DNA of 32,891 nucleotides from an uncultured bacterium (GTDB lineage: Bacteria > Zixibacteria > MSB-5A5 > CAIYYT01), in the NCBI GenBank assembly GCA_903930455.1, contig CAIYYT010000111.1, positions 1 through 32,891 on the forward strand, read 5' to 3'. Positions within the stretch are counted from its first letter, which is position 1. Each line of letters opens with the position of its first letter. The notes beneath the pieces were generated by a model that was not told the DNA's origin, ran no database searches, and worked only from the letters and a program-made list of their open reading frames with translations. A program made the position numbers and the translations under genes. Shown piece after piece: positions 24,335 to 32,891 of the stretch.

Positions 24335-24407
24335 TTGTCTGGGCAGCCGATATCATCTAAGGAAGGTTTGGATAGCGGAAGTATCTTTGTCCGTAGAGGA
24401 TAGCGTT

Positions 24408-26147
24408 ATGCCTTTTCAGTCAAGAGACATCAAAAGTTTAGAAAAAACCGACAAGTTCATATTGCCGGTCGACAGGGAGACTGTGAATACGAGTATCGAA
24501 ACGAACGCCGAGGATCTCCTTTCTCGCATGGAGCGCTCAGTAAACACCATCACCAAGGCGCGACCCCATCTCTCCAGCGACAAATCAACCGATGGGGAAA
24601 TCAGCAACTACAAGACCTTACTGGAAATCTCCGCGCTGGTCAACAGTTCGCTGGTGACGGATGACATCCTGCAGGTAGTGATGAAGCGCGCCATCGAGCT
24701 GATGAAGGCCGAGCGCGGCTTCCTCATGCTTCTGGATGATAATAACCAGCTCCAATTTCGCACAGTCTACAATCTCTGCAAAGAGGAACTGATGCAGGAG
24801 GATTTCAAGTTCTCCGGTTCAGTGGCCAACAAAGTCGCGTTGACCGGCGAATCGGTCTATACCTCTGACGCGCAAAATGACGAACGTTATTCCAAGCAAA
24901 AGTCGATTGCGGAGTTGAACCTGCGATCGATCATGTGCGTGCCCCTGAAAATTCAGGATAAAACCATCGGCGTCATCTATCTGGACAACTCGAGCGAAGC
25001 GCGACTGTTCCTCGAAAGCGATCTCTATCTCTTCGAACTCTTCGCTTCGCAAGCGGCAATTGCCATCAATAACTCGCGACTTTACGAAAGAATACTTCGC
25101 CTGAAACGGTTCAATGAAGACATCGTGTCAAATACTCCGGTTGGTCTGGTGGTGTTAAACAACCAACTGAAGATTGCCGTGATGAATTCCGCCGCCGAAA
25201 GGATTTTCCACCGCAGCCACTTCCCTGACACCTCATTGGATGCACTGCTGACGGGCAACACTTATGATCGTTGGCAGCAGAGTTGCCAGAGTGTCCTTGC
25301 CTCCGGAGTGGCCGAGTCGATCTCGCGGTGTTACATCGCGGTCGGCGAAGAAGAGCGAGTTTTGTCGGTGAAGTTGTCGCCGATGGAAGAGGTCGATCTG
25401 AACGGTCGGGGCGTCATCATCGTCATTGAGGATATCACCGAAAAGACAATTCTGGAAAACTATGTAACGATCTCCGAAAAGTTGATTGCCAAGGGAGAAA
25501 TGGCGGCGTCAATCGGACACGAACTCAACAACTTCCTCGCTATCATCTCCAACAACGCCGAACTGATGCAGGTGAGACTGAAGAAGGGCGAGCATGAGAA
25601 ACTCGACAAGTCGGCATCCGCTATCCTCGATAACATCGCGAAAATTAAACGGTTCACCGACAACCTGATGGATCTCTCCAAACTCGATCAGGAGGTGGTG
25701 ACTTACAACATCAACCGGCTAATCGATGATCTGCTGTTTTCGATCAAAACGCAGCGGCGGTTCAAGTCAGTCGGATTTGTGGTGAGAATGAGCTCGGAGT
25801 TGCCGGATTGTGAAATAGACGTCGGTCAGATTCAGCAAGTATTCCTCAACTTGCTTTACAACGCGGCTGATGCGCTGGAAAACCGTCTCGGAAAAGCCGA
25901 GATTCTGATCACAACGCGCGCTGAGGAAGGCAAGGTTGTGGCTTCGGTACGCGACTCTGGTTGTGGTGTTCCGCCGGAAAATCAGGAAAAGATCTTTGAA
26001 CCGCACTTTTCGACAAAGACTCACGGCCATGGGCTGGGACTCTCGAACTGCAAGCGGATCATTGAGAACCACAGCGGCACGATTTCCGTGGAAAGCAAAG
26101 TGGGTAAGTATACAGAGTTCAAGATAATCTTGCCACAAAAACGGTAG
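24408..26147 (+). CDS. Cytoplasmic GAF-PAS sensor histidine kinase
   Basis: ATG 24408 is chosen over an in-frame TTG at 24387 because GAGGA lies seven bases upstream; the protein is then 579 residues. There is no membrane segment. A polar N-terminus (1-65) precedes a GAF domain (about 70-225; AERGFLMLLDDNNQL, IMCVPLKIQDKTIGVIYLDN), a PAS-like domain (about 235-350), a dimerisation helix with phosphoacceptor His371 (SIGHELNNFLAII), and a GHKL ATPase (NLLYNAADALE, RDSGCGVPP, HGHGLGLSNCKRI). No response regulator follows; instead a Ser/Thr kinase gene begins nine bases after the stop, suggesting the two act together. Confidence 0.9.
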   Translation: MPFQSRDIKSLEKTDKFILPVDRETVNTSIETNAEDLLSRMERSVNTITKARPHLSSDKSTDGEISNYKTLLEISALVNSSLVTDDILQVVMKRAIELMKAERGFLMLLDDNNQLQFRTVYNLCKEELMQEDFKFSGSVANKVALTGESVYTSDAQNDERYSKQKSIAELNLRSIMCVPLKIQDKTIGVIYLDNSSEARLFLESDLYLFELFASQAAIAINNSRLYERILRLKRFNEDIVSNTPVGLVVLNNQLKIAVMNSAAERIFHRSHFPDTSLDALLTGNTYDRWQQSCQSVLASGVAESISRCYIAVGEEERVLSVKLSPMEEVDLNGRGVIIVIEDITEKTILENYVTISEKLIAKGEMAASIGHELNNFLAIISNNAELMQVRLKKGEHEKLDKSASAILDNIAKIKRFTDNLMDLSKLDQEVVTYNINRLIDDLLFSIKTQRRFKSVGFVVRMSSELPDCEIDVGQIQQVFLNLLYNAADALENRLGKAEILITTRAEEGKVVASVRDSGCGVPPENQEKIFEPHFSTKTHGHGLGLSNCKRIIENHSGTISVESKVGKYTEFKIILPQKR

Positions 26148-26156
26148 AATTTGAGC

Positions 26157-29100
26157 ATGCAAGCTATGTTTCCCGAGTCTACGGGGCTAAGCGGGGCACA
26201 GCAAATCGGAGAAGGTGGGGCGGGTCGTGTCTATTCAGCATGTCACTCCCAATGGGGACAAGTAGCTGTCAAGGTTGCCATTGATTCCGATCCGGCGACG
26301 CAAAATTTCTTTCTCAGCGAATACACACTGCTTCGCAGTCTCTCGCATCCCGGTATCGTCAGGCTCTTCGATTTCGGTCACACGCTTGACCATTGCTCCT
26401 TTATTATCATGGAGTTGCTGCCCGGCGGTGATTTCTATAGCTGGGCTTCAGCACAGCCAGTACAGCGCCGATTCCAGCCTCTCGGCACGATCATCTCAGC
26501 GCTCGACTACATCCACACTCTGGGAATTATCCACCGCGATCTCAAAGGCGAAAACATCCTGCTCGATGACCGCCTTCGTGCTCGGATGATTGATCTGGGT
26601 CTGGCCTTGACCGGTGGCAGCCCAAATACGCGCTCCGGCACTCTGGAATACATGGCGCCGGAGGTCATCGATAATCAGCAAGCGACTCCCGCCGCCGACA
26701 TCTATTCGCTGGGCGTCATACTCTTCCGTCTGGCAACCGGCAGACTTCCTTTCGAATCGTCTGATCCGCTCCAGATTATCTCGCTCAAGCACCACCCGGA
26801 CGAGCTGGAAGGAGAGATGATTGCTGCCGTCGTGTCGGATCGATTTGCGGAAATGGTGCGGCGGTGTCTTGATCCGGATCCGACCCAACGCCCTAGATCG
26901 GTGACTGACGTTGCCGAGCAGTTGCTCCTCACCAATCTGCTGAGCAAAGAGCATGTCGATCCGCAGTCGATTGACCACTACCTGCACCACTACGTCCGCA
27001 GCTACAATGCAAGTTACGCGAAACAGGAACTACGGCATCTGACCACCGACTATCTAATCAGAGACTCCCATCAGGGAGCGACGACCGGTCTGCTGGAAGC
27101 GATCGCTGATTTTTTGAAGACAAGCGGGCACGACGTGATATGTAGCCGTCAGGAGACACTTGCCTATACGGGAACTGACCGTCGCAAGCACACCATCTGT
27201 TTAGTCGACTTAGCGAGCGGTCCCGGCACTCAAAAAATAATCGAGTATCCTGGACTTGACCGTTTTGCGTTTGACACCATCCTCGCGAAGCTGTTTCCCG
27301 CCGGCGTTGATGGCGTTATCAGCGATCTGCTGTACGAGTATTCAGGGGGTAACATCAGCCTTTTCCGACTACTTCTGAATGGATTGGAGCGACAATCGCT
27401 GATCGATTTGAGGGCAGGTCGGATTCTATTGCAACGTGATCGCTTGTTTGCGTTTGAGCCGGATGACGAATATTTCAGGACAATCGCGGCGATGCTGCCG
27501 GAATTGCCTGAAGATCTGGCAGCGGCGGTAGCATTTCTATCAGCCGATCCATTTGGAAATCCTCCAGGCGCCCTCATAGCTACATCGAGAGTCACCAAAG
27601 AGACACTGCCGGCATTGGCCGATCTCGGCATTCTGAGAGACGACGATTACCGGTTTGCGCATAGTTACTATCGCCAGTACTACTATCACTCCCTCTCCTC
27701 TTCGGAGCGGACAACGGTGCATCAAGAATGGGTGGCTCAAATCGATAGAGGTCTGGTGAACGATGAAACAGCTCGCGCTGAGCAACTCTTTTACCATTTG
27801 GCCGGGGCCGCCGAGACCGGCAGAGCCATCGAAACGGCTACCGCGCTGGCGCAGCGTTTCCGAAAAGACCAGCAACCAGACAAGGCGCGTATGCTGCTGG
27901 CTCGCGTATCGGTTCTGCCCATTGCCTCCGTCAGTGTCGATCTGCAATTGAGATTGCGAATGATTTCGGCGGACATAGACAACGACGCCGGAGCCTTCGA
28001 CCGTGCGTTGTCCGATTGTGCCCGCGCAGTCAGCTTGGCAAGACGATTGGGCGACAAGGCGCAATTGGCCAAAGTGTACCAGTTTCTCGGCGAAATCTAT
28101 AAGAGCAAGAGCGACCATCGGCGCGGCAACCGTGTGCTGAATCGCGCAGTCAAACTCTACGGCGAATTGGGCGACGAACATGAGCTCTCGCGTTGCTTCA
28201 ACAATATCGGCAATATCCTCTGGCTCGTCGGCGACCTGAAGGGTGCGGCCGCCAACTACGAGACTGCGTTGGAAGTGCAAAAGCGACTGGGAGTGAAGAA
28301 AGACATTGCCTCCACTCTTAGTAACCTCGGCGCACTCAAGTTCATACAGCACGAAGTCGAATATGCCATACGTCTCTGCAAAGAGTCGATTACGATTAAG
28401 CGCGCCATCGGCGACTGGCCGGAATTGGCACGCACGGCCAACAATCTCGCCAACATATATCTTGAAGTCGATGAATTGCAGACAGCAACCGATTATCTTA
28501 ACGAGTCGCTGCAGATCAACCGCTCACAGGGCGCAGTGCAGGAGATGCTTTACAACTTCTGGAATTTCTATGATGTGGAATCTCGTCGTGGCAATCTTTC
28601 GAAGGCAGCGGAGTGGCTTTACGCCGGACTTCGACTGGCAAAACAGAGCGACCGTTTTCATCGTGGTAATTTTTCCGCTCTGCTGGCTGTTCTCATGCTG
28701 ACCATCGGCAGATACGGTAAAGCCGGCCATCTTCTGCAGGCGGCGAGCAACTTCGGCCGGCAGGTGGACGACCGAATGCTGGCATTGAGACTGACGGAGA
28801 CGTGGGGAGAGTATTACCGGCTGCTGTTTGACTGGGATCAAGCACGTGCGCAAATAGCCGATGGAATCGTCCTCGCTGACACTCTGGGCGAGTCGACCGG
28901 CAAGGCGCGGCTGCTCATCATGAGAGCCCGAGTCGACAGAGCTGCGGGAGAGCGAGACAGCGCAATCTGGGAAGCGTTGACCGAGGCGGAAGCCTTGGTC
29001 AAATCCATCCCCGCGCAACGCGAGAAACTGACGATTCTGTTAGACAAGACCGAGTACCTGATAGAGTCGAATAGGTTGACGGAAGCGCAAGAGGAATATG

Positions 29101-29474
29101 CGCAGGTGCGGTTGCTGCCGCAATTTGAAGGCATCAATACCATGCAGGGGAGGATCAGCCTCCTCAATGGACTGATCGACTTCCGGAGTGGTCAACACAG
29201 TCGAGCCCTTACCCTGTTCAACGATGCCTATCTCGCCTCCAAGACGATGCAGATGCCGGAGATGACTTGGAAAGCTTTAGTCGTGCTGGGAGAAACTTAT
29301 CAAGCGCTGACCGAGTACGAGCGGGCATTCAAGTGCTACATAGAGGCATTTGACATTCTCAAGAGATTAGCGTCGGGCATCGCCGATCCAATAAGCAAGA
29401 GGCGCTATCTCTCCGATGTCGCTAAAATTGCGGTAGCCGAGAAGCTCGAGGAAATGTCGGCGCTGGTGACCTAA
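26157..29474 (+). CDS. Ser/Thr protein kinase - degenerate STAND-like NTPase - TPR protein
   Basis: From ATG 26157 the protein has 1105 residues. A Hanks-type kinase domain fills about 10-265: glycine loop IGEGGAGRVYSA, Lys39, catalytic Asp128 in IHRDLKGEN, metal-binding Asp146 in a DLG (not DFG) motif, and EYMAPEV. Residues about 290-600 resemble the NTPase and winged-helix part of PknK/MalT-like STAND proteins, but at the P-loop position the sequence is RDSHQGATTGLLEAI with no GK[ST]. A Walker-B-like CLVDL follows (Asp351). From about 610 to 1090 there are at least ten TPRs (for example SRCFNNIGNILWLVGDLKGAAANYETALEVQ). It is probably a scaffold kinase working with the upstream histidine kinase. 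An in-frame TTG at 26151 is the alternative start. Confidence 0.88.
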   Translation: MQAMFPESTGLSGAQQIGEGGAGRVYSACHSQWGQVAVKVAIDSDPATQNFFLSEYTLLRSLSHPGIVRLFDFGHTLDHCSFIIMELLPGGDFYSWASAQPVQRRFQPLGTIISALDYIHTLGIIHRDLKGENILLDDRLRARMIDLGLALTGGSPNTRSGTLEYMAPEVIDNQQATPAADIYSLGVILFRLATGRLPFESSDPLQIISLKHHPDELEGEMIAAVVSDRFAEMVRRCLDPDPTQRPRSVTDVAEQLLLTNLLSKEHVDPQSIDHYLHHYVRSYNASYAKQELRHLTTDYLIRDSHQGATTGLLEAIADFLKTSGHDVICSRQETLAYTGTDRRKHTICLVDLASGPGTQKIIEYPGLDRFAFDTILAKLFPAGVDGVISDLLYEYSGGNISLFRLLLNGLERQSLIDLRAGRILLQRDRLFAFEPDDEYFRTIAAMLPELPEDLAAAVAFLSADPFGNPPGALIATSRVTKETLPALADLGILRDDDYRFAHSYYRQYYYHSLSSSERTTVHQEWVAQIDRGLVNDETARAEQLFYHLAGAAETGRAIETATALAQRFRKDQQPDKARMLLARVSVLPIASVSVDLQLRLRMISADIDNDAGAFDRALSDCARAVSLARRLGDKAQLAKVYQFLGEIYKSKSDHRRGNRVLNRAVKLYGELGDEHELSRCFNNIGNILWLVGDLKGAAANYETALEVQKRLGVKKDIASTLSNLGALKFIQHEVEYAIRLCKESITIKRAIGDWPELARTANNLANIYLEVDELQTATDYLNESLQINRSQGAVQEMLYNFWNFYDVESRRGNLSKAAEWLYAGLRLAKQSDRFHRGNFSALLAVLMLTIGRYGKAGHLLQAASNFGRQVDDRMLALRLTETWGEYYRLLFDWDQARAQIADGIVLADTLGESTGKARLLIMRARVDRAAGERDSAIWEALTEAEALVKSIPAQREKLTILLDKTEYLIESNRLTEAQEEYAQVRLLPQFEGINTMQGRISLLNGLIDFRSGQHSRALTLFNDAYLASKTMQMPEMTWKALVVLGETYQALTEYERAFKCYIEAFDILKRLASGIADPISKRRYLSDVAKIAVAEKLEEMSALVT

Positions 29475-29509
29475 GGAAAGAGAGGGTCATCACTATGACA
29501 ACCCTCTCT
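29471..29509 (-). terminator. Terminator of the miniature minus-strand gene
   Basis: AGAGAGGGT and ACCCTCTCT (29479-29487 / 29501-29509) form a perfect 9-bp stem with an extra inner TCAT/ATGA pairing. On the minus strand the stem is followed by TTCCTT; on the plus strand it is followed by CCAACC, so orientation favours minus. It lies 24 bases after the stop of the 25-residue ORF and overlaps the kinase stop codon. Confidence 0.55.
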
Positions 29510-29533
29510 CCAACCGGTCTGAGGTTGCTGGAG

Positions 29534-29611
29534 TTAATGCTGTCCACCCAAGCTGAAACCACCTGGGGCAACTTTCTCCTCGAGCTCCTCAATCATCAGA
29601 TTGTATACCAA
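29534..29611 (-). CDS. Candidate 25-residue peptide gene, possible precursor for the adjacent protease/exporter
   Basis: Translation starts at TTG 29611 and ends at TAA (29536-29534). The Shine-Dalgarno AGGAGGTGA is complementary to nine bases of the 16S 3' end and ends with optimal spacing. The peptide has a short hydrophobic start, an acidic helical segment IEELEEKVA (residues 7-15), and a Gly-rich tail PGGFSLGGQH (16-25) with double glycines at 17-18 and 22-23. The leader-like acidic half followed by a small Gly/Ser-containing end resembles RiPP precursors, but I recognise no family. It sits between a promoter/leader hairpin and a terminator. It is downstream of, and on the same strand as, the PqqD-M50-HlyD gene. 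A regulatory leader peptide or small RNA are alternatives. Confidence 0.45.
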   Translation of the reverse strand: MVYNLMIEELEEKVAPGGFSLGGQH

Positions 29612-29615
29612 AACT

Positions 29616-29627
29616 TCACCTCCTCCT
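29616..29627 (-). promoter_or_regulatory. Exceptionally strong Shine-Dalgarno
   Basis: On the minus strand AGGAGGAGGTGA reads from 29627 to 29616. It is the strongest ribosome-binding match I saw in the window. The GGAGG core is seven bases from TTG 29611. There is no corresponding start on the plus strand. Confidence 0.6.
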
Positions 29628-29649
29628 ATGAGTTAAATGAACCGGTAAT

Positions 29650-29686
29650 CAGGCGCCAAGGTGAGTGGCGCCTGTGTTTCTTTCCT
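29650..29686 (+). terminator. Rho-independent terminator of the kinase operon (plus strand)
   Basis: CAGGCGCCA (29650-29658) and TGGCGCCTG (29666-29674) form a perfect 9-bp stem with a 7-base loop, followed by the T-rich TGTTTCTTTCCT. On the minus strand the same hairpin would form at the 5' end of the miniature gene's transcript and has no T-run after it. Confidence 0.7.
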
Positions 29687-29713
29687 ATAGGTCCGGTTGT
29701 CCTCAGAAGTCAA
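29684..29713 (-). promoter_or_regulatory. Candidate proximal promoter of the miniature gene
   Basis: On the minus strand TTGACT (29713-29708) and TATAGG (29689-29684) are 18 bases apart. The predicted start near 29677 is immediately before the leader hairpin. Confidence 0.4.
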
Positions 29714-29735
29714 ACCGGATATACCACTTAAAACA

Positions 29736-29763
29736 AAGATAAAGCGGAGTCGGAGTTTGTCAA
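29736..29763 (-). promoter_or_regulatory. Candidate distal promoter of the miniature gene
   Basis: On the minus strand TTGACA (29763-29758) and TATCTT (29741-29736) are 16 bases apart, the same hexamers and spacing as the promoter at 15308-15335. Confidence 0.4.
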
Positions 29764-29886: not shown

Positions 29887-32136
29887 CTAGAACCAGGACC
29901 AGAGTTCGAGGCGGAAGAACCGAGATATCTTCCTGCCAAGCCAACCGGCCAGAGAGATTCGACCGCAATCGACCTTTGCATATCCCGTCATCTCTGCCAG
30001 CAGATTATGATTTGTGTTCGCTACGGCTGCGACGGCTCTTAGCTGTGGTGACAGTTTGAACTTGAGAATCTTGCCGTGATGGCGTGTTCCCGGGAAAGCG
30101 CTAACACGCAGTTCCACGTCGGCCCCCGGGTTGAGCAGATCAAGATCGGACTCACGTAGATCGACTTCGACCATCAGCGACTCTGTGCGGGCAAGTTGCA
30201 GAAGATCTCTGGCGTCGGCGGTACCGACCATTACACCGGCAAAAGGGCTGACTATTGTGGAAGCAGACAACTGATTTCGCAGGTAGCTGGTGCGCGCCTG
30301 CAGTTTCTCTATGTCGGCATCTATCCTTTCGACTTCGGCGGCCTTGGGCGCAGACTTGAGCAGCTTCAACTCGCTCTTCTTTGCATCCCACGCGGAAGAA
30401 GCAATCTTAAACTGGGAGACTGAGCGATCATAGTCGTCGTCGGAAATGAGTTGCTTGGAATGCAGTTCCTTCACGCGGTTGAACTCTTTGCGTGCAGCTT
30501 CGTAAATGGCTTCAGTCTGCCGGATGTCGGCGCGCTTCGTAGCAACCTCTTCAGCTTTGGGATCAGAGAGAAGCAATCTTCGGTCGGCCTCTGCCCTTTT
30601 CAGGTCAGACTCGGCTTCGGCCAGAAGCCCGGCATTCATGGCGGAGTTGATGCTCAAAAGTGTGTCTCCTGCGCGAACAGTATCGCCGATTGAGAAACGC
30701 GGTTGAATCTGGGTGATTGCATAGTCGGAGGCAGAGAGTTGGAAAATCTGTGACGTCTCCTGATCTTCGATTCCGCCACGGAAATACCGTCCCTCCAAGA
30801 GGCTAGGGCCAACACGTTTTACGACGTACGATTCCGCCGCAAAAAGTCGTGCCGCACCACCGGTCGTCTGACCTACGCGAATCAGAACACTTGCTGCGAC
30901 GACAAGCACAATGATAACGATGTCGATTGCGATGCGCTTCGGTTTCATCCAAACCTTGTTCCGCTCTCGCCATACCGAGGCGAGTGCTTGCCACCATTTG
31001 ACCAAAAGCCCTTTGAAAATAATCAAACTCAGAATCAGGAACAACACAAATCCGACACCTTCCCACTTTCCAATCAAGAACTGCCCACCGCGGTAGAGAA
31101 CAAAGACGATTAGAAAGACGGAGTAGGCAATCGCCAGCAGGCCGTAACGCCGGTAGATTCGTGCTTCGCGCGCGCTTGGTACGATGCTGGTCGGGAGACA
31201 TCCGAAAAGACGGACTCTGAAACGTGTCCAGATGTAGTCGAAGGCTTTCTGGCGCAGATTGGGAATGCGCAGGTAGTCGGCGAGCAAATAGTAGCCGTCG
31301 AGTTTGATCGCCGGATTGAGATTGAAGACCGTAGTCGCAAAACAGATGGCAGCTACCAGATAGAAAACGCGGTTGAGAAAATAGCCTTCGACAGTGATAC
31401 GCCAGAGGATCGTGAAACCACCCCAGAGAACTAGTTGCGCACCGATTCCGGCGAGAGTTACCAGCAGCCGTTGACGGCGTTCGGGAAAGAGATAAGCGTC
31501 CGAAACGTTGCAGTAGAAGCAAGGTTGAAAGTAGAGGAGCAGAAATCCCATTTCGCGAACATTACCGCCAAAGTGTCGGCACGTAAGAGCGTGAGCAAAT
31601 TCATGGACGATCGTAATCAGAAAGAGACAGACGATGATGGTCAGGATATCGGCAGCGCGAAAGATGGCCGCGAGTTTGAATGGAAACTGATCGATGTTGG
31701 CGAAAAAGACAACCAGTCCAAGTAAAACGACAATGGTCTGGACCCAGATCATCGGAGTTGAAAGCAGCCAACGAATCTTCGGATAGAGCCAGTCGAGCGA
31801 ACGCTTAGGGTTGAAAGCCTTGAGCGGAATGAAGAGAGCCGAACGACGCTTCTCCCTCTTTGCCTCCGTGCCTTCCAGGAAGCCGAGGTCTGCGATTTTG
31901 TCTGCAAATTGCGCTACGGCCTCGGGGGAGATCGTCTTGTTGAAGGTCTTGACAAAAAGATCGGCGGCTTCCGTAGGAGTGCGGGTACCATCAAGTGATG
32001 TCAGTAGGAAGTGCTCAGGTTCACGAAGGCGGATGAATTTGCCGGAAGTCGGTTCTTTGATGATGTAGTAGAGGACTCCTTCAGCGGACTCGCTCAACAT
32101 CTGGAGATTGGTCTTGATCTTCGGATAGGTTATCAT
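29887..32136 (-). CDS. PqqD-like / M50 site-2-type protease / HlyD-type adaptor fusion (peptide processing and export)
   Basis: The 749-residue protein begins with a PqqD-like winged-helix domain (residues about 10-90; FIRLREPEHFLLTSLDGTRTPTEAADLF). It then has an M50 membrane protease with zinc motif HEFAH (178-182), a Cys pair in QPCFYCNVSDAYLFPE, and the second metal motif in LNPAIKLDGYYLLADY (Asp280). A further membrane block (about 330-395) and a single TM (about 405-425) lead into an HlyD-like periplasmic adaptor: lipoyl-like halves (ITQIQPRFSIGDTVRAGDTLLSI; STIVSPFAGVMVGTADARDLLQL) around a coiled coil (515-625). PqqD domains bind RiPP leaders; 'putative peptide zinc metalloproteases' of this layout accompany peptide natural-product genes. 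No ABC transporter or modifying enzyme is visible in the window. ATG 32136 is preceded by AGAGAAG. Confidence 0.85.
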   Translation of the reverse strand: MITYPKIKTNLQMLSESAEGVLYYIIKEPTSGKFIRLREPEHFLLTSLDGTRTPTEAADLFVKTFNKTISPEAVAQFADKIADLGFLEGTEAKREKRRSALFIPLKAFNPKRSLDWLYPKIRWLLSTPMIWVQTIVVLLGLVVFFANIDQFPFKLAAIFRAADILTIIVCLFLITIVHEFAHALTCRHFGGNVREMGFLLLYFQPCFYCNVSDAYLFPERRQRLLVTLAGIGAQLVLWGGFTILWRITVEGYFLNRVFYLVAAICFATTVFNLNPAIKLDGYYLLADYLRIPNLRQKAFDYIWTRFRVRLFGCLPTSIVPSAREARIYRRYGLLAIAYSVFLIVFVLYRGGQFLIGKWEGVGFVLFLILSLIIFKGLLVKWWQALASVWRERNKVWMKPKRIAIDIVIIVLVVAASVLIRVGQTTGGAARLFAAESYVVKRVGPSLLEGRYFRGGIEDQETSQIFQLSASDYAITQIQPRFSIGDTVRAGDTLLSINSAMNAGLLAEAESDLKRAEADRRLLLSDPKAEEVATKRADIRQTEAIYEAARKEFNRVKELHSKQLISDDDYDRSVSQFKIASSAWDAKKSELKLLKSAPKAAEVERIDADIEKLQARTSYLRNQLSASTIVSPFAGVMVGTADARDLLQLARTESLMVEVDLRESDLDLLNPGADVELRVSAFPGTRHHGKILKFKLSPQLRAVAAVANTNHNLLAEMTGYAKVDCGRISLAGWLGRKISRFFRLELWSWF

Positions 32137-32525
32137 TGCGCTTCTCTTATGGGAAGATGCGAGATTGTAGAAGCGAGGGCAATGGGAAAGGTTGAGCCAG
32201 ACGATTCAAGCTCGCAAGCAGGCAGACACCCAGAATTGGGGAGTCAATGATATGGCGCGAATAATCCAATTCGCGATGTCAAAGAACAAGCGAACCTCGA
32301 CTTGCGTCTTCCTGTGACGGATGAACAGTCTGTGCGGTCTCGCTATGCCTTTCAGAGATTGTCCAGGGTCGCCGTTTTCGCGGGAATGGCCGTCGCCGCT
32401 GACACGCACTCCGGACACTGGCCGGGCGCGGACAGGACAAGAGATCCTCCAGACACAGTCTGATCGACTCATCCGAGACTCATAAGAAGAGTCAGGAAAC
32501 GCGAACGGGTTGCGGGGAAAAGGGG

Positions 32526-32726
32526 ACGCTCCTCCATAAAGTCATCGACATCGCAAACGTCCGCTATTGTAGCGAGGTCGATTGGACTAGCGGTTGTCAC
32601 GATACGCTCTATTACTGGGTTCCGGTTGACGGCGTAAACTGTTCTTGCGAAGCTTTCGTCATGACAGGTTTGACCCAAATCGAAGACGATCGCTACGGAA
32701 GACTTACGAGACCCATCAAAAGTTGA
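32526..32726 (+). pseudogene. Possible 3' remnant of an unidentified gene
   Basis: This plus-strand frame is open upstream and ends at TGA 32724-32726. It reads like real protein (HKVIDIANVRYCSEVDW, then HDTLYYWVPVDGVNCSCEAF, then TQIEDDRYGRLTRPIKS), but no ATG, GTG or TTG with a ribosome site is present. A 69-residue minus-strand frame overlaps it. I do not recognise a family. Confidence 0.22.
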
Positions 32727-32730
32727 TGGG
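32712..32730. repeat. Short palindrome CCCATCAA-AAG-TTGATGGG
   Basis: A perfect 8-bp stem with a 3-base loop overlapping the stop of the possible remnant; it could be a terminator or a dispersed repeat unit. Confidence 0.4.
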
Positions 32731-32766
32731 GCACCTTCGCGATGATGTGGCGATGTTCATGGCGCA

Positions 32767-32806
32767 CCCTTCGACAGGCTCCCTTCGACAGGCTCAGGGC
32801 GAACGG
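32767..32806. repeat. Tandem and inverted 'CCCTTCGACAGGCT' repeat
   Basis: CCCTTCGACAGGCT occurs twice head-to-tail (32767-32780, 32781-32794). The second copy continues to CGAACGG at 32806, forming a near-palindrome with CCCTTCG. The sequence is the widely dispersed environmental-bacterial intergenic repeat 'TTCGACAGGCTCAGGGCGAACGG'. Confidence 0.6.
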
Positions 32807-32891
32807 CGCGCACAGGCATAAACACATCAAAGCGTGTCAGCCGGACGGCATGTATCTGACAACGCGAGCCACTTGGTTTACAGCGACAGAC

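Follow-up and report, generated by a model that had tools for sequence, protein, structure and literature searches.

The window, a stretch of 32,891 nucleotides on contig CAIYYT010000111.1 from an uncultured member of the Zixibacteria, carries on its minus strand a 25-codon ORF with a TTG start at 29611 and a stop codon ending at 29534. It encodes a short peptide and lies beside the gene of a 749-residue protein that combines an RRE (PqqD-like) domain, an M50 peptidase and an HlyD-type adaptor (Table 1). Both genes converge on a protein kinase gene, which we call KIN; it is a third conserved gene, and was overlooked when the region was previously interpreted from its letters alone.

The peptide gene and its surroundings

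Table 1. Features of the peptide locus, in window coordinates
Feature	Position	Strand	Basis or remark
GAF/PAS histidine kinase, upstream of KIN	24387..26147	+	Pfam; also syntenic
KIN, Ser/Thr protein kinase with C-terminal TPR repeats	26151..29474	+	Pfam; conserved partner, role unknown
Hairpin with 14-nt arms, between the peptide gene and the convergent KIN	29479..29509	.	Probable bidirectional terminator
Peptide gene, TTG start	29534..29611	-	Product MVYNLMIEELEEKVAPGGFSLGGQH, 25 aa; homology and coding constraint
Peptide tail, residues 17-25	29563-29537	-	
Peptide leader, residues 3-16	29605-29564	-	
Shine-Dalgarno sequence AGGAGGTGA	29616..29624	-	AGGAGG core to TTG, 7 nt
Leader hairpin, 9-bp perfect stem and 7-nt loop	29650..29674	-	Mostly retained in the same-genus genome G001
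Promoter-like TTGACA-16-TATCTT	29736..29763	-	Consensus scan; identical hexamers in G001
749-aa processing/export protein, RRE (PqqD-like) + M50 + HlyD	29887..32136	-	Domain and structure searches
HlyD/periplasmic adaptor part, residues 478-730	29947..30705	-	HlyD_D23; MacA/EmrA structures
Second-site Asp280 in LDGYY	31299-31297	-	Invariant in alignment
HEFAH zinc/catalytic motif, residues 178-182	31591..31605	-	Invariant in alignment
RRE domain, residues 1-90	31867..32136	-	AlphaFold2 model and Foldseek

Most of the expression signals that a sequence-only reading had proposed for this ORF are borne out. The nine-base match to the anti-Shine-Dalgarno sequence is present with its 7-nt spacing to the TTG, the ORF has the proposed length and end, and hairpins occur on both flanks (29674-29650 and 29509-29479). 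Two -35/-10 pairs had also been proposed; one of them, TTGACA-16-TATCTT, passes a consensus scan, but the second does not. The downstream hairpin begins ~24 nucleotides past the peptide stop and is directly followed on the minus strand by TTTCCTT, and is probably a bidirectional terminator. The 291-nucleotide minus-strand RNA is predicted to fold far below its shuffled versions in energy (z -4.95).

A genome of the same genus, G001, encodes MELYNLMIEELEEKVAPAGISQGGQGG at the equivalent position, with the same -35/-10 hexamers, Shine-Dalgarno sequence and TTG start codon; the leader hairpin, too, is largely preserved there. From the start codon to the variable tail, the sole indel between the two genomes is of three nucleotides, and further small indels are found in the tail region and the UTRs. 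A competing plus-strand frame of 78 codons was rejected as a gene; in G001 it contains stop codons and has no equivalent ATG start. Upstream of the 749-residue protein gene, the window has more than 700 bp without a clear gene (32172-32891).

The existence of a conserved small ORF in relatives had been set beforehand as the test on which the proposal could fail. We looked for such ORFs and found them across the phylum, and the 25-codon ORF is a real gene. A scan for relatives of the 749-residue protein returned 21 loci, mostly from Zixibacteria, two of which (L010 and L027) are truncated by contig ends. When the surroundings of the partner genes were examined in six frames, nearly every locus that no contig end truncates proved to have the peptide. 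Within the loci of relatives, an HMM of the peptide separates members (E < 4e-11) from the next non-member (E = 0.94) by a clean gap, and the model matches 105 of 133 Zixibacteria genomes. The peptide has no real match in Pfam or NCBIfam.

From the loci that were fetched we extracted 117 copies, representing 111 distinct peptides of 21 to 36 amino acids, every one of which carries LE-x-x-[IVLT]-[ASV]-P. The leader, at residues 3-16, has the consensus Y-x-L-x-[VI]-E-x-LE-x-[RK]-[IV]-A-P. The tail that follows the AP has a median length of eight residues and is rich in glycine (35%) and serine (14%), and 78 of the 111 distinct peptides have S-x-GG[Q/E/G..]-like endings. The predicted pattern of an acidic segment and then a glycine-rich one is conserved in peptides encoded downstream of the PqqD-like/M50/HlyD gene. 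The division into leader and tail was also foreseen, but its boundary has to be moved: the conserved part runs to the AP, and therefore the variable tail starts after these two residues and not at the proline. A conserved leader followed by a variable core, as seen in peptide alignments and in the 111 distinct peptides, is what is expected of RiPP precursors.

Shine-Dalgarno sequences of at least six nucleotides precede 107 of the 117 copies, compared with 1.0% of 66,569 background starts. Over the 13-codon leader, pN/pS is 0.16 in the true frame (375 pairs); of the remaining five reading frames, four give values above 1. The value of 0.19 in the fifth, an antisense frame, is expected, because its wobble positions are shared with the true frame.

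Tandem arrays of four to seven peptide genes occur at some loci (L018, 7428-9165; L013, 7466-8580) and in the genomes of genus g16 (G024-G027). Tails in these arrays are of the type SR[YW]GA[DE] in place of GGQ, and the genomes have no detectable Ser/Thr kinase-TPR gene.

The partner protein and joint inheritance

Among the matches listed, a Foldseek search with the whole partner protein gave solely HlyD-type adaptors, and for this reason residues 1-103 were modelled alone with AlphaFold2 (mean pLDDT 74.5). The top PDB entries for this model are complexes with leader peptides, namely TbiB1-leader (E = 9e-4) and lasso B1-leader (E = 0.03), which indicates that the assignment of a PqqD domain in the sequence-only reading was right in fold, though Pfam support for PqqD is weak (5 of 20 homologues, best E = 0.007). 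The N-terminus is accordingly predicted, at the confidence of the model, to adopt a leader-binding RRE fold.

Peptidase M50 (PF02163) scores 35.1 bits against a cut-off of 27.2, and the site residues H178, E179, H182 and D280 are invariant in a 14-member alignment; the protein satisfies the M50 criteria of HExxH, a second-site Asp and a multi-TM core. HlyD_D23 is found in 20 of 20 members, and the fold matches MacA and EmrA, which satisfies the adaptor criterion of a barrel-sandwich domain with a coiled-coil hairpin. No ABC or other energized transporter or pump adjoins the Zixibacterial partner genes; TolC adjoins several proteobacterial homologues. An ABC exporter was considered as a third partner and rejected, as the upstream gene in many relatives encodes a ClC chloride channel. 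This channel was not found in the source genome.

Two kinds of unusual homologues were seen. Those in Competibacteraceae (L029 and L030) lack HExxH and follow polyketide- or fatty-acid-synthase-like genes, and no peptide was found in their genomes. In another case (L023, 5001-5366; G059:C23), an intact peptide accompanies an RRE-M50-HlyD frame that breaks off near residue 121, which reflects either an assembly error or a recent inactivation.

The peptide and the RRE-M50-HlyD protein form a real two-gene unit. A model of the RRE-M50 region finds the partner in 101 of the 133 Zixibacteria genomes; 97 have both genes, 24 have neither, 4 have the M50 gene without a detected peptide and 8 have the peptide alone (Fisher p = 1e-15). 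At least one of the eight peptide-only genomes is a contig-edge case. Because the genomes are related, this and our other co-occurrence p-values overstate independence. In all 58 fetched loci that contain both genes, the peptide is on the strand of the M50 gene, at a median distance of 262 nucleotides downstream. Co-occurrence persists in other families in which the two are unlinked or separated by ~22 kb (G007, G008, G077 and G089). Two genomes, G014 and G015, have an empty site: 35 nucleotides separate the ClC gene from the kinase gene, and both the peptide and the M50 gene are missing, whereas the congener G013 has both genes between the same flanks.

Wherever KIN was detected (92 of 92 loci), its orientation is convergent with that of the peptide gene, also at loci whose M50 gene is elsewhere, and the two co-occur (p = 9e-12). 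Five genomes have KIN and no peptide; two of these are real empty sites, and in the rest the kinase gene is at a contig end. The locus thereby fulfils one criterion of RRNPP signalling, a TPR protein gene next to that of a short pro-peptide. No match to KIN was found in the four g16 genomes, which have the SR[YW]GA[DE]-type tails and up to seven tandem copies.

Similar leaders in other phyla

In Acidobacteriota, the peptide is present in 12 of 297 genomes, all of them among the 52 that have an RRE-M50 gene (p = 3e-10), and the two genes are mostly on the same contig and within 1 to 2 kb. Tails attached to the leader here range from ~8 to 80 residues; in one example, MKHLNLELEKLEQRIAP is followed by a Gly/Ser/His-rich tail, and in another case three different peptide copies surround a single M50 gene. 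The 297 genomes are those of the phylum of the Aminicenantes locus L025, which GTDB names Acidobacteriota. At loci L282, L285 and L280 of the same phylum, the LExRIAP leader is followed by repeats, GYEGQPGNQGG among them, that make up the tail.

A tblastn search of plasmids with the 749-residue protein leads to operons of Pseudomonadota that encode a giant protein, adaptors, often TolC, and an RRE-M50-HlyD protein. In most annotated plasmid cases the gene for a giant or large protein precedes the partner operon; the operon in pMSR-1 has an ELWxxDGT protein, and that in CP081100 has no annotated giant protein. Several of the giants have a box near their N-terminus (LHVEPIEPRILLSAD, IIFDTLEPRVLLNAD, VHFEALEPRLLLSAD and ALEPRFMFDAA) that resembles the peptide leader, and no box was found in the Alisedimentitalea giant protein with its annotated start. 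Large proteins of Planctomycetota have similar boxes as well. The NCBIfam model LEPR-8K matches 41 of 399 Pseudomonadota genomes and the partner is found in 95, with both in 40 (p = 2e-27), where the two usually adjoin. By a hand count from coordinates, at least 25 LEPR ORFs adjoin an RRE-M50 gene.

When peptide and LEPR profiles are compared, a score of at least 4 is reached in 43 of 113 cases, versus 68 of 11,300 for shuffles. By profile alignment the similarity is moderate (hhalign E = 2e-4, probability 47%), and the LEPR-XLL model NF012209 (>17 bits) does not recognize the peptides, with only 1 of 22 matched, at E = 0.13. We therefore regard a shared origin of the peptide leader and the LEPR-XLL box as likely, but not proven.

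Interpretation and known systems

We consider it probable, with real room for error, that the ORF encodes a substrate of the neighbouring RRE-M50-HlyD protein; the binding, the cut site, the export and the role of the tail are inferred. The cytoplasmic RRE domain would bind the conserved leader, which serves as an address label, and the M50 domain would then make an intramembrane cut close to the AP junction or at it. From there, the adaptor part (HlyD) would pass the short glycine-rich tail over the envelope, probably via a TolC-like channel, so that the tail would be the product of an RRE-guided intramembrane protease and exporter. M50 cleavage with export has a precedent in EpeP (PMC10885120). 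This sequence of labelling, cutting and export is well supported by the anatomy of the proteins and by inheritance, and there are no biochemical, RNA or other experimental data. Points that weigh against it are the weak Pfam support for PqqD, an RRE assignment that rests on a structure model, the only moderate profile similarity between peptide and LEPR box, the lack of an energized transporter beside the gene, and the genomes with one of the two genes but not the other. The earlier proposal of a two-component system for peptide maturation and export is supported by the conserved small ORF, the co-inheritance, the empty site and the RRE fold, but the status of the peptide as a RiPP is unproven.

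The conserved convergent gene with TPR repeats raises the hypothesis of peptide signalling, in which the tail is a pheromone that RRE-M50-HlyD matures and exports and KIN senses, in the manner of RRNPP systems. This would extend the preferred explanation and not exclude it. The TPR repeats of KIN are confirmed, a tail of ~8 residues suits a pheromone, KIN co-occurs with the peptide and is convergent with it even where the M50 gene is elsewhere, and the g16 genomes, whose tails are of the SR[YW]GA[DE] type, have no KIN match. However, G014 and G015 retain KIN without the peptide and M50 gene, the Aminicenantes arrays were not seen to have KIN as a neighbour, and genes may stay together in a conserved block although they share no function. 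RRNPP receptors, whose TPR domains bind short peptides that the M50 protease Eep helps to mature, are moreover known from Gram-positive bacteria; their targets are mostly DNA or partner proteins, and they are not known to act as kinases. Signalling through KIN is therefore possible, but we would not expect it. Slightly less credit goes to a RiPP with antimicrobial or cofactor function, whose tail would be modified by an enzyme encoded elsewhere before being cut and exported. An RRE domain, an M50 family that resembles those of RiPP systems (daptide and epipeptide models match below cut-off), a variable tail and tandem copies in some genomes are all in keeping with this idea, but none of the neighbours examined was recognized as a gene for a radical SAM, YcaO, lanthionine synthetase, PEARL or ABC protein, cysteine occurs in only 2 of 111 peptides, threonine is scarce in the tails, and the gene is single-copy in most of the phylum, unlike a variable weapon. 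Since no modification enzyme was recognized among the clustered neighbours, the peptide has not been shown to be a RiPP, although an enzyme encoded elsewhere is not excluded.

The functional part could instead be the leader, as a small regulator that restrains the M50-HlyD protein, with the tail merely a degradation tag. The leader is far better conserved than the tail, and L, E, A and P are invariant in the peptide alignment; yet the S-x-GGQ-like endings are kept across families (78 of 111), and the long tails in Acidobacteriota also speak against such a regulator, which we regard as improbable. That the ORF is no gene, and arose by chance within a conserved intergenic RNA or terminator region, might be suggested by the strong RNA hairpins on both flanks, but the selection on the true reading frame, absent from most others, and the occurrence of the same leader in another phylum leave this idea virtually no standing: conservation refutes it.

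The preferred reading, of a labelled peptide cut and exported by its partner, extends to other phyla. Acidobacteriota show the same logic of label and processor, only with tails that are longer, and Pseudomonadota probably do so with the LEPR-XLL box of giant proteins as the label. In its broadest form, which we offer tentatively and hold to be slightly more doubtful than an even bet, this is an undescribed route in several phyla: a near-N-terminal hydrophobic-x-hydrophobic-E-x-LE-x-[RK] box (LExR-AP or LEPR-XLL) is read by a single RRE-M50-HlyD protein, the cargo ranges from ~8 residues in Zixibacteria to tens in Acidobacteriota and thousands in Pseudomonadota, and in Zixibacteria the TPR kinase may sense the product as a signal used throughout the phylum. 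If so, one recognition logic would serve substrates whose sizes differ by some three orders of magnitude, and a core gene of an entire phylum may escape small-ORF annotation. An uncultivated bacterial phylum would have a nearly universal peptide and, dedicated to it, one processing protein; with two genes and no tailoring enzyme seen, the system is very small. For LEPR-XLL, the box that NCBI named on giant surface proteins, a receptor and a protease could now be proposed and its role as a signal put to the test; the literature we searched on the PqqD/M50/HlyD combination, on DUF4347 with TolC and on LEPR-XLL offers no mechanism.

Several known systems share parts of this architecture. The daptide protein MpaP (NF041824) has an RRE/PqqD-like N-terminus and an M50 core that match residues 24-379 of the partner (E = 7e-69). 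Unlike MpaP, the partner is fused to an HlyD half, and neither a daptide precursor nor tailoring genes were seen nearby. Membership was rejected, the score of 232.8 bits being below the curated cut-off of 300. Epipeptides (EpeX/EpeP, or YydF/YydH) likewise pair a small precursor with an M50 protease. They need the radical SAM epimerase EpeE and are encoded with an ABC transporter, neither of which was seen at the peptide locus. Membership in YydH/LiaK (NF058609) was rejected as well (48.9 versus 225 bits, and no radical SAM gene among the neighbours). The M50 protease EpeP is thought to cut and export the epipeptide precursor (PMC10885120). Pearlins also involve a membrane M50 protease that acts on a scaffold peptide, where TglG or TmoG releases single C-terminal amino acids (PMC10885120). 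Here, extra residues often follow the S-x-GGQ, and no peptide-aminoacyl-tRNA ligase was seen; because the motif is not strictly C-terminal, a pearlin-like C-terminal release was rejected.

RRNPP systems with Eep resemble ours in having a short peptide, an M50 protease and a neighbouring TPR protein. The differences are that the TPR protein is a Ser/Thr kinase, that the envelope proteins are of Gram-negative type and that the leader would be read by an RRE domain, and there are no binding data. The LEPR-XLL proteins have LLSAD after the box, not APxx, and cargo of thousands of residues, and their operons add TolC and extra adaptors, but they share with the Zixibacterial peptide a near-N-terminal hydrophobic-x-hydrophobic-E-x-LE-x-R box and a cargo encoded beside an RRE-M50-HlyD gene.
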